Part shown: positions 6,643-13,581 of the stretch, in pieces | How the letters are laid out: each line of letters begins with the position of its first letter | How positions within the stretch are numbered: the stretch's first letter is position 1 | NCBI RefSeq assembly: GCF_009688965.1 | Contig: NZ_AP021875.1 | Coordinates: 930,001 to 994,000 of the forward strand | Source: Desulfosarcina widdelii | GTDB lineage: Bacteria > Desulfobacterota > Desulfobacteria > Desulfobacterales > Desulfosarcinaceae | Direction: 5' to 3' | Length of the DNA stretch: 64,000 bases | Made by a program: the position numbers and the translations under genes | The notes under the pieces: model-generated | Told to the model about the DNA's origin: nothing | The model's database searches: none | What the model saw: only the letters and a program-made list of their open reading frames with translations

Positions 6643-8406
6643 TTAGATGGTAGCGGTCAACTCGGGGAAGACCACATAGAACATGATGTAAGCCACCACC
6701 AGGGTGAGAAGCAGGTTGAAGGACTGCCCCACGACGTAGAGAATAAACGGCTTGCCGCCCACCAAATGTTCCTTGAGTTCCCGGAAGTTGGTGGCCAGGC
6801 CGATGCTCACGAAGGAGAGGCAGAAGAACCAGCCGCGGAAAAGGTCGCTCATGCCCTTGATCACGCCCTGATCGATCATGGCCGATCCGAGACCGCCCAC
6901 CTGGCTGTTGAACGAAGTGTAGGCCAGGGAGAAGATGATCGACGCGGCGATAAAGCCAAGGACGAATTTCGGGAAGCGGTACCAGATCTCCATGGCACCG
7001 ACCTTTTGGCCGGTCTCGGCGGCTTCCACGCGGGTGGTGAAGTAAAGGGCCACGAAAAAGGCGATCACGCCGATGAGCACGTTCTGGATCATCTTGATGG
7101 TCGCTGCCACGTAAAGGGCTTTTTCACCGAGGAAGGCACCGGCTGCCGCCACGGCGCCGGTGGCGTCGATGGTGCCGCCCATCCAGGCCCCGCCCAGGAT
7201 CAACTGTTTGTCCACGGGGAAGGTAGACTTGATCACGGCCGGCATGACGATCATCATGATGGAGGTGAATACCAGCGAGAGGCCGACGGAAAGGGTCAGC
7301 TCCTCTTTTTTGGCTTTACAGGCTGCCGCAGTAGCGATGGCCGCGGAGACGCCGCACACGCTCATGTCGGAGCAGATGGTGGCATTGAGGCGTTTGGAAG
7401 GAATCTTGACGACTTTCTGGCCGAACCAGTAGGTGACGAGCCAGACGGTGGGGGTGACCACCCAGGCCACGAAGATACCGGCGGTGCCGATGGTGATGAT
7501 TTTTTCGAACAGGATCTTGGCGCCCAGGAGTACCAGGCCTGTCTTGATGTAGTACTCGGTCTGTACGGCCGGTTTGGCCCACTCGGGCGTGCCCACGGTG
7601 TTGGAGATCAGCATGCCGAAGAAGATCGCCCAGGCGGCGTAGCCGATGCCGTAGTGCTTCATGGTGGCCTGGCTGCTGGCCAGGTAGGCCACAATGGCGA
7701 CCAGAAAGACGAAGATGAAGCCGACCACGAACTTGCCGAAATCCTTGCCCATGGCCTTTATGCCAATGCCGAAGAAAACGGCGAAGCTGGCGCCCAGGAA
7801 GACCAGCCAGCCGATCTGGTTATAAGCGCTGACCTTGGTTTTCTTCTTGGCATTGCTGGCGGCCAGGTGCGCATCGCGCCATTTGGCGATGGAATCCTTG
7901 GCCTGCAGGTTTAGGGTCGCGTCACTGAACCCGGCGGCCTCGGCGGCGGCTTCGGCGGTTGCAGCGGCGGCCAATGCGGCGGCAGCGGCGGACTTGGCCT
8001 TGTCATACTTGGCCACGGCCTTGGCCTTCTTGGCATCGGCCTTTTCCTTGCTCATGAAAAAGGCGTCCAGAGGATTGGTAGACCAGCCGTGGGTCTTTTT
8101 CGAGAATTTGGACATGAACTTGCCGGCGGCAATGTCCTTGGATTTAACCTTTTTCTTGGCGTCGTACATCTGGTACCAGGCGATGGTCTTGAACTTGTCG
8201 GTCCGCTGGGCGGCCTGGGTGTACTCGGACTCGATGTCCGTCAGTTTGGCCTTCATGGCTCCGGTCTGGGGAAAATAGAGCACCGCACCGGCGATCAGAA
8301 TAACGAAACCGAGCCAGATGGCCCACCAGTCTTCTTTCTTGACCAGCTCGGACCATTCCCACTTTCCGACGTCTTTGACGACCTGGCCGTCTGAGTTTGC
8401 AGCCAT
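6643..8406 (-). CDS. YeiH-family putative sulfate/anion exporter with N-terminal extension
   Basis: 587 residues from ATG 8406, chosen because GGAGGAAGA lies directly upstream and the sequence further 5' is not protein-like. The C-terminal 350 residues are a multi-pass membrane protein with YeiH family signatures: [36 protein letters not shown] followed by AKKEE, and [19 protein letters not shown]. Family members are annotated as putative sulfate exporters; the substrate is not experimentally firm. Unusually, the N-terminus carries a first membrane segment (about 27-46) and then about 150 residues of Lys/Ala-rich, probably coiled-coil sequence before the transporter core. A sigma-54 promoter lies 110 bp upstream and two small membrane proteins follow. 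Confidence 0.88.
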
Positions 8407-11951: not shown

Positions 11952-12383
11952 ATGCAACGATTACAACCAACGCAAATTCGCCTGGATCTGGTGGTGCTGG
12001 TCGTCGCGTTGATTCTTTTTGGCGCCATGGGTACGGTGTTCCCCGGCGATTCCCAACTGTCAGCGACTACCGATAGACAAAAAGAAAACGGCCCGAACGG
12101 TTTGCAGAAAAAAAAGATAGGCATCAAAATCGGCCTGCCAATGACCGGCAAATGGGTCGATACCCACATCGGTACCGACAATGGACAGGCGGTTTCAACG
12201 AAATGGGCCCAAGAGGGGCCGGCCCTGAAGGATACCTCTAACAACAACCCTTTCCTTGGTATCGGCGGCGAGTTCAGCCTGGATCTTTCGGAGTGGATGG
12301 AACTCAAAGTCGGCATCGACTTTTCCAGCGATCTCTACGACGACCAGGTAACCGGTGTCGCCGGAATGAATATCAATTTTTAA
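11952..12383 (+). CDS. Small exported protein, possible outer-membrane beta-barrel relic
   Basis: 143 residues with a Sec-type signal segment (LDLVVLVVALILFGAMGTVFP, cleavage probably soon after) and a mature part with alternating polar/hydrophobic strands (KIGIKIGLP, LGIGGEFSLDL, MELKVGIDF) ending in an aromatic residue (GMNINF), as outer-membrane barrels do. It is much shorter than a complete barrel, so it may be a small barrel or a truncated one. AAGGAAG lies 8 nt before the ATG. Family not recognised. Confidence 0.55.
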   Translation: MQRLQPTQIRLDLVVLVVALILFGAMGTVFPGDSQLSATTDRQKENGPNGLQKKKIGIKIGLPMTGKWVDTHIGTDNGQAVSTKWAQEGPALKDTSNNNPFLGIGGEFSLDLSEWMELKVGIDFSSDLYDDQVTGVAGMNINF

Positions 12384-12556
12384 AAGTGCACGTCCGGAAA
12401 GCCGGACGACTGTCCGAAAAAAAGGACGTGAAATAGCGGTTTCGACCGCGGATCGGACGGGTGTCAGGAAAATGACGATAGGGAAAACGGCATTTCCGCA
12501 AATCGGTGGTTCCGAATCCATCCTTGATCCTATCCGAGTCAAGGCGGGCAGGTCGG

Positions 12557-12584
12557 TTGTAAAAGAATTGAAGATCTATATAAT
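12557..12584 (+). promoter_or_regulatory. Sigma-70-like promoter upstream of candidate sRNA
   Basis: TTGTAA, 16-bp spacer, perfect TATAAT. No protein start follows before the terminator at 12751-12782, so a transcript from here would be a roughly 190-nt non-coding RNA. Confidence 0.5.
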
Positions 12585-12688
12585 ATCTTGAAAAAAAGAG
12601 GAATTATTTTTCAGGCGTGGTAAAAAAGGCCAACAGGCGCCTTGGAAAGCGACTCGAACGCAGGACAGCACTTCAACTGAAAATAATG

Positions 12689-12704
12689 TGGCATACAACG
12701 TGCT
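12689..12704 (+). promoter_or_regulatory. Sigma-54 (-24/-12) promoter of candidate sRNA
   Basis: TGGCATACAACGTGCT keeps the GG-N10-GC spacing and TGGCA of the consensus; the -12 element is GTGCT rather than TTGCT. Predicted transcription start is about 12715. Confidence 0.55.
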
Positions 12705-12714
12705 TATTCAATTG

Positions 12715-12782
12715 TCGAAGGTAAAACACTCCTCCTTCCCCTCCTCCTCCGACAAGGCCCTAAACGGGCCTTGTCCTTTTTT
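12715..12782 (+). ncRNA. Candidate CU-rich (anti-Shine-Dalgarno) small RNA
   Basis: A roughly 68-nt transcript unit bounded by a -24/-12 promoter and an intrinsic terminator, with no open reading frame. Positions 12730-12750 are an unbroken C/U tract with repeated CCUCC/CUCC motifs, complementary to GGAGG ribosome-binding sites, placed single-stranded just before the terminator hairpin, as in known C-rich trans-acting sRNAs such as the CcsR (CCUCCUCCC) family. Its 3' part overlaps, antisense, the last codons of the nucleotidyltransferase gene that ends at 12760, so cis regulation is also possible. Existence of the RNA is inferred from promoter and terminator only. Confidence 0.5.
12751..12782 (+). 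terminator. Intrinsic terminator
   Basis: Perfect 10-bp stem GACAAGGCCC / GGGCCTTGTC with a 5-nt loop, followed by CTTTTTT on the plus strand. The minus-strand gene stops inside the stem, and no U-run exists in that direction, so it serves the plus strand. Confidence 0.85.
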
Positions 12783-13581
12783 GGAAGATACCGATAGCCT
12801 GGTCGTAGCCGTCCGGGTTGCCGGCATCCAGCACATTGACCGACAGATCCAGACCGTGAACCGTACAGCCCGTTTCGACCAGGTGGGCAAAGACTTCCCG
12901 ATCTTTCACTTCACCGTTCGTTAGGTTTCGTAATAGTTCCCGGCAGGCGTCCAGAAATCGAAAAGTGGCGATGTAAACACCACAGGGCCGCAGGCCAAAG
13001 GGGAATGTCCCGGGAATTTGAGCCGGTATCAGCCGGTAAAGACGGTTTCCCAGCGGCGACAGGCCACAGGGCGGTGCCTGTGCATATTTCAGCATCGGCG
13101 TCAGTAGCACGATTTCCGTGCCGACTGCCTGCTGGCGCGAGATCAATTCAACCAGGGTGCCGGGAGGATGAGCAATGATGTTGTCCGGATAGTGCACTGC
13201 AAAGGGTTCGTCTCCTATCCATTCGGCTGCTTCCAATATGGCGCCGGCCTCCCCGGTCTGAGCCTTTTGGTAGAAAAACCGGATATCCATGTGTTTGCCA
13301 TTGCGTTGCAGCCAGCGATCCTCGCGAACAACGCGGACAATGTCCTGTTTTTCCCGGCGGATGACGATGCCTACATGATCGATGTCGGCAGCCAAAGCTT
13401 CCCGAAGGGAGTATTGCAGGGCCGGGCGGCCGCAGATATCAAGGACCTCCTTGCTGGCTCCTTGGGTAAGGCCGCGCATTCGTTTGCCGTGGCCTGCGGC
13501 GGGAATGATCATGGCGCGTACGGATGAACCGGTGGAACCGAGTGCTTTACGCTCCGCCGAGGCCACCTGATCAGATGCCAT
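12760..13581 (-). CDS. Sugar-1-phosphate nucleotidyltransferase, GalU-like
   Basis: 273 residues of the nucleotidyl-transferase family. The nucleotide-binding signature is MIIPAAGHGKRMRGLT followed by the lysine of ASKEVLDICGRPALQY, and FAVHYPDNII supplies the metal/sugar-nucleotide loop in the GalU/RfbA arrangement. It would form a UDP- or dTDP-sugar from NTP and sugar-1-phosphate. The assigned start overlaps the end of the DUF1989 gene by 11 bp; the internal ATG just before MIIPAAG (about 24 codons in) is an alternative and fits the usual family N-terminus better. It is close in length to GalU but divergent, and substrate specificity is not predictable. Confidence 0.82.
   Translation of the reverse strand: MASDQVASAERKALGSTGSSVRAMIIPAAGHGKRMRGLTQGASKEVLDICGRPALQYSLREALAADIDHVGIVIRREKQDIVRVVREDRWLQRNGKHMDIRFFYQKAQTGEAGAILEAAEWIGDEPFAVHYPDNIIAHPPGTLVELISRQQAVGTEIVLLTPMLKYAQAPPCGLSPLGNRLYRLIPAQIPGTFPFGLRPCGVYIATFRFLDACRELLRNLTNGEVKDREVFAHLVETGCTVHGLDLSVNVLDAGNPDGYDQAIGIFQKRTRPV

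Follow-up and report, generated by a model that had tools for sequence, protein, structure and literature searches.

The Qrr RNAs of Vibrio comprise several siblings with sigma-54 promoters and an enhancer-binding activator, the arrangement also proposed here; they are Hfq-dependent, act in quorum sensing and have a different sequence. The rhizobial alpha-r14/NfeR1 small RNAs carry unpaired CCUCCUCCC anti-Shine-Dalgarno (anti-SD) motifs and, as reported, are functionally redundant, Hfq-independent and block translation initiation, NfeR1 having three hairpins with three motifs and a promoter without a sigma-54 signature (PMC10746234). CJnc230 (FlmE) of Campylobacter jejuni is described as a short, RpoN-linked RNA in which a putative anti-SD (CCUU) occupies the single-stranded segment separating two stem-loops (PMC11187230). 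In Desulfovibrio vulgaris, the small RNA gene Dv_sRNA2 is reported to lie downstream of, and to be a target of, the response regulator DVU0679 (PMC3333781). Here, we analyze a 64,000-nt stretch of Desulfosarcina widdelii (NZ_AP021875.1, positions 930,001-994,000 of the forward strand; genome label G000), from now on referred to as the window. At 12689-12782 of its plus strand, a -24/-12 promoter, a C/U run and a 10-bp terminator are arranged consecutively. This element is real, and its sequence and homologues make it reasonably probable that it encodes a trans-acting RNA of about 67 nt that depends on sigma-54 but not on Hfq, pairs with SD sequences and is one of several siblings.

The -24/-12 site reads TGGCATACAACGTGC (12689-12703), and its GG and GC lie 10 nt apart, which bears out the exact spacing given in an initial annotation of this DNA. 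The perfect 10-bp terminator hairpin with a U-run described there was also recovered (Table 1), and a terminator scanner picked up the same terminator. The C/U tract had been put at 21 nt with CCUCC motifs; it is uninterrupted and carries CTCC/CCTCC repeats, but measures 22 nt. In the predicted fold of the RNA, the terminator hairpin is preceded by a small hairpin at the 5' end and by a C/U linker that stays unpaired; the RNA sequence holds no ATG or GTG. Rfam 15 gave no gathering-score match at this RNA or its siblings (window and 20 loci scanned), and sub-threshold hits in 12540-12800 were rejected as chance (the best scored 20.4 bits, where the cut-off is 60).

The kinds of RNA that the window RNA resembles are already known. 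Its exposed CUCC-rich linker is most like the NfeR1 anti-SD motif (PMC10746234). It differs from NfeR1 in having two predicted hairpins and one linker, its own sigma-54 site and another lineage, the distinction being drawn by description and not by sequence; the alpha-r14 criterion of three hairpins, each with CCUCCUCCC, does not describe its predicted fold. Like CJnc230, it is short and combines an RpoN-type promoter with a predicted unpaired anti-SD-like stretch between two hairpins, but its own -24/-12 promoter recurs at scattered loci. Dv_sRNA2 is paralleled by a sibling that can adjoin its activator gene (type D, below), again compared by description and not by sequence, whereas the window copy has no such gene beside it.

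Searching 60 relatives with BLAST returned the locus itself, a copy in G004 with 83% identity over 250 bases and shared gene order, and the RNA part only in G011 and G008. A model built on these four copies (R1) detected copies outside its training set in G012 (E 1.4e-16) and G002 (E 1.3e-15), as well as a second, more diverged G012 copy (G012b; E 1.4e-9). At E <=0.1, R1 found some match in 8 of the 13 genus genomes and the full unit in six of them (seven copies); the window RNA unit and its genus copies are referred to as type A. Applied to the order (389 genomes) at E 0.001 with stricter large-set filters, a model built on all seven (R2) confined the full unit to the same six genomes and gave a partial match without promoter in G006. 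The initial annotation proposed a sigma-54-dependent unit and named loss of tract and promoter in close relatives as one outcome that would speak against it; instead, promoter, pyrimidine tract and terminator are kept as a stand-alone unit in 6/13 genus genomes and in varied surroundings. At least four distinct gene neighborhoods are occupied. In the window, the neighbors are CorA, an unnamed open reading frame (ORF) and NTP-transferase/DUF1989, and G004 has these surroundings with the transferase almost gone. The G008 copy adjoins a TPR protein and the G011 copy RidA and TPR. The G002 copy and one of the two G012 copies have an Exo_endo_phos protein upstream, while the second G012 copy has other neighbors.

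Relative to syntenic G004, the promoter is 88% identical, the RNA up to the terminator 92% and the terminator itself 94%, compared with 64% for a sigma-70-like stretch further upstream and 70-80% for the other stretches. Both promoter motifs are invariant (Table 1). CUCC is kept in six of the seven copies, with varying spacing. The predicted 5' hairpin GAAGG/CCUUC recurs in G004 and one G012 copy, G002 and G011 have a hairpin of different pairs in that position, and the predicted stem is looser in G008 and almost gone in G012b. Sequence comparison supports the promoter, terminator, predicted exposed tract, conservation, autonomy and siblings of the window RNA.

Table 1 Coordinates of the window RNA unit, nearby candidate sites and the own-genome type D RNA
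Feature	Position	Strand	Basis or remark
Sigma-54 (-24/-12) promoter TGGCATACAACGTGCT	12689..12704	+	Sequence; GGCA and TGCT invariant in 7/7 aligned copies
Small RNA, ~66-68 nt	12715..12782	+	Start near 12715-12717 predicted from promoter spacing
5' hairpin GAAGG/CCUUC	12717..12738 (12717-12721 pairing 12734-12738)	+	Predicted fold
C/U tract with CUCC/CCUCC repeats	12729..12750	+	22 nt uninterrupted; 12739-12750 unpaired in predicted fold
Intrinsic terminator	12751..12782	+	Stem of 10 perfect pairs (12751-12760/12766-12775) followed by C and a run of six T (12777-12782)
Candidate activator site TTGAT-N9-GTCAA, weak	12524..12542	+	Motif read by eye from relatives
Sigma-70-like match	12557..12584	+	Consensus match only; 18/28 positions kept in G004
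Type D RNA, own genome	L110:6763-6861 = G000:C1:5788762-5788860	-	

With the promoter scored by our own weight table, the combination of a promoter score >=18.5, a terminator stem >=9 and a C/T run >=15 occurs once in the window and in none of 24 dinucleotide-shuffled windows; the tract itself is the sole C/T or A/G run of at least 21 in the window (shuffles average 0.05). The architecture pattern alone yielded 37 matches in 30 genomes versus 18 in a reversed control, counting overlapping matches, and by eye these were mostly coding or unrelated. A looser pattern gave 7 matches against 10 in the control for G000, 23 against 22 for G004, 13 against 10 for G008 and 35 against 8 for G001, the last excess being inflated by one repeated element. 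Because architecture-only scans are weak against their controls, motif counts were excluded from the evidence, and support for the window unit comes from its homologues. G001 contains seven copies of a stretch with TGGCACTTTCATTGC (or a single variant thereof), which is probably a mobile element.

Outside the genus, R2 gave 15 matches in 14 genomes. Twelve carry a strong sigma-54 site, ten of which represent a sibling referred to as type D; L117 and L124 have no such site and L128 has a weak one. A third model (R3) was built on the 10 non-genus type D RNAs and three genus copies and includes the promoter. It matches 269 of 389 order genomes and 106 of 150 genera (E 1e-4), with E-values that are rough and some searched genomes having supplied the model. 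In a class search, 138/192 genomes matched, a set overlapping that of the order, and phylum-wide 23/395 did (E 1e-5), 13 belonging to the order and 10 lying outside it. Eight of these 10 were inspected: all eight have a strong -24/-12 site, as selected for by a promoter-containing model, seven keep CUCC and six miss the antisense start codon. An exact core pattern found 31 stretches collection-wide, all labelled Desulfobacterales, Desulfobacteraceae, Desulfosarcina, Desulfococcus, Deltaproteobacteria or Olavius-associated delta proteobacterium.

The type D core, approximately AACCUAAUAAUUUyUUCAUCUkUUyUCCUCCUUAA, is the complement of an SD sequence, a spacer and AUGAA. Among 62 distinct rows of the fetched loci, CTCC is present in 51, and TTCATC, the complement of the start codon in its proper place, in 46. 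In the same rows, pairing holds in 97.7% of the terminator cells and 168 double changes are seen, with 0/500 shuffles as high; slid controls pair at 10-53%, and the fitting of the alignment to the model biases it toward pairing. The covariation check suggested in the initial annotation divides: the type A stem is near-invariant in sequence across its seven copies and so offers no covariation, whereas type D, of similar design, covaries strongly.

An enhancer-like palindrome of approximately GGTTCAAAATTTTGAACC upstream of type D, read by eye from 18 of the loci, matches at >=14/18 positions in 36/43 loci tested; the shuffle average is ~11, and the best of 60 shuffles at each locus scores 12-15. 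At L155, L157 and L174, a different palindrome of approximately GTTTCCAnnTGGAAAC replaces the missing usual one. In 6 of 18 inspected loci, the upstream same-strand gene encodes a sigma-54 activator (Pfam), three with a receiver domain visible within the fetched sequence; all six (L147, L151, L155, L160, L174 and L176) have the order sigma-54 activator gene, type D RNA, convergent ORF, the latter being a TPR protein by Pfam at L174, the only one tested. No activator gene adjoins type D at the inspected genus loci.

Further siblings were found by scanning the window and 20 fetched regions for a strong -24/-12 site plus terminator. The own genome contains a tandem pair near G000:C1:4671000 (L097, about 6965-7455, minus strand), also present in G004 (L098), which consists of a long RNA ending in CGCTCCTCTCCC ahead of its terminator and a type B RNA with CCTCC. 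A possible third unit with a CCTCC tract, a terminator and a weak promoter lies just upstream of the pair. Long sibling RNAs occur in G012, G008 and G006, and type E in G023 (two copies) and in G027, where the stem has a poor T run. Because terminators lie just upstream, both G012 type A copies may be in tandem units as well.

The machinery that the proposed RNA would need, and the factor it would do without, are consistent with the genomes. rpoN is present in 12/13 genus genomes, including the own genome, the exception being a 63% complete assembly. No Hfq was detected by the Pfam model at E 0.001 in any of the 13 genus genomes, three of them single-contig, while the same model was positive in 5/14 control genomes. 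In the upstream regions of 17 type A, B, C and H units, TTGACA/TGTCAA was counted 14 times versus 1.7 expected (0/300 shuffles as high), the motif having first been read by eye from the sequences tested, some of which are near-duplicates. A TTGAT-N9-GTCAA-type motif has five matches among 17 units, window unit included, against 0.06 expected in shuffles; the window match is doubtful because it is degenerate in G004. The initial annotation also proposed a sigma-70 promoter giving a longer RNA form. A match exists, but its conservation in G004 is the lowest of the compared stretches, and it is probably nonfunctional.

We hypothesize that a signal-responsive enhancer-binding protein and sigma-54 RNA polymerase would start transcription near 12715-12717 and that the intrinsic terminator would end the transcript at about 12782. 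In the folded RNA, a C/U linker would lie exposed between a short 5' hairpin and the terminator hairpin, and this linker, without Hfq, would pair with purine-rich GGAGG-type SD sequences of a subset of mRNAs and thereby block ribosome loading. Type D would be the most widespread sibling, its core being complementary to the whole initiation region (SD, spacer and AUG). Transcription, an activator, SD pairing and repression by the window RNA are what we infer from this architecture, anti-SD action being the most economical reading of the sequence.

Potential targets were sought among 43 predicted starts in the window, taken from our own gene calls by length and GC content at third codon positions (GC3). 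GGAGG, AGGAG or GGGAG is found at 13/43 starts versus 2/36 internal controls, so that the earlier statement of complementarity to GGAGG sites throughout the window holds as an enrichment but is overstated in its extent. A target search found none for the window RNA, and the complement of the own-genome type D core, allowing up to three mismatches over 29 bases, occurs only at the type D locus itself.

Several findings weigh against an SD-pairing regulator under activator control. The duplex energy of the tract is no better at the 43 starts than at internal sites (p 0.39) or with shuffled tracts (p 0.66), and a cruder set of 47 starts gave the same null outcome; because of this and of the SD-type motif at only 13/43 starts, the window RNA would act on a subset of mRNAs at most. 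G012b has lost the CUCC cores and retains pyrimidines only, type C siblings (G008 and G002) consist of promoter and terminator without a C/U tract, and 5/13 genus genomes have no R1 match, with G006 and G001 having weak or other matches only. The TTGACA/TGTCAA activator motif is weak to absent both in the window copy and in G004. Three of the six activator-adjoining type D loci (L155, L160 and L174) lack the GGTTCAAAATTTTGAACC palindrome, and types A and D may share a design without sharing a common origin.

The lack of preference for starts, the G012b tract and the type C siblings also fit a sigma-54-dependent RNA in which the partner of the C/U tract is a protein or a second RNA (sponge, chaperone or decay factor) and not an SD sequence, as does the conservation of the terminator stem sequence beyond what termination needs. 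We regard this as unlikely, though as an alternative to be taken seriously. Retention of CUCC in six of seven type A copies despite differing spacing argues for SD pairing instead, and protein binding would not predict that type D keeps both CTCC and a start-codon complement at the frequencies given above.

A decayed or mobile family copy without function in this strain could account for the variable neighborhoods, the weak activator site at the window unit and the phage-type integrase gene (L097:5539-6618) that lies near the own-genome tandem pair. Yet promoter and RNA are the best-conserved parts relative to G004, which renders this explanation improbable. Phage origin was considered and rejected: there was no blastn match in phage records, and viral contigs did not contain one exact CTCC plus terminator pattern.

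Still less probable is that no plus-strand RNA gene exists and that the conserved part serves the other strand, as an SD with a short ORF or as a bidirectional terminator. The complement of an anti-SD is necessarily an SD; in the window, it is followed by a GTG that begins a frame of 18 residues, and in type D, SD and ATG are found in 53 of the 62 distinct rows, 28 of them reading MKKLLG. However, the type A GTG is GTA in G004, where the frame itself is open, and no peptide is common to the seven copies, while type D frames are 4-64 residues long and go out of register when the length changes (MKKLLG versus MKNY), with the RNA core unchanged. An opposite-strand peptide is therefore disfavored for both types, and three features agree with the plus strand: the T run, the promoter spacing and conservation that sets in near the predicted +1. 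Finally, a cis-antisense role on the convergent NTP-transferase gene (12760-13581, minus strand), whose stop codon the RNA 3' end does overlap as the initial annotation noted for a sugar-nucleotide gene, can be given hardly any credence and the overlap looks incidental, since the RNA persists in G004 without a transferase ORF of >=80 residues, only the last codons being recognizable, and the copies in G002, G008, G011 and G012 adjoin other genes.

Returning to SD pairing, a broader and distinctly tentative proposal is that Desulfobacterales possess a translation-control layer in which dedicated response-regulator activators may switch on sigma-54, Hfq-independent anti-initiation RNAs with conserved SD-complementary cores (in type D, cores covering SD, spacer and AUG), so that a signal would throttle strong-SD mRNAs generally; the window RNA would be a genus-level branch of it. 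A literature search covering titles and abstract beginnings, with incomplete coverage of subscription papers, returned no description of the window RNA or its siblings and little on small RNAs of sulfate reducers of this group. What is new, to our knowledge, is that an own sigma-54 promoter and an exposed linker resembling an anti-SD are combined in a genus without detected Hfq, together with an order-wide sibling that sometimes adjoins an activator gene. A promoter-defined set of anti-SD-like RNAs would offer a concrete post-transcriptional system in these bacteria and would be a case of an RNA core kept complementary to a generic initiation region.

Some additional elements were observed at the loci inspected. 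The type C units at L099 (6370, minus strand) and L100 (6597, plus strand) have TTCATGG and a AAGGCGAGGCCCAATTG stretch in common. At L012 (G001) and L028 (G008), CCCTCCTC tracts and strong terminators make up short units that have no good sigma-54 site; L012 has an inverted repeat CTGAACACTCCCGTTCAG upstream. In the window, a 143-residue ORF without a Pfam match (11952-12383, plus strand) lies upstream of the RNA; in G004, this place is taken by a similar ORF with 139 residues.
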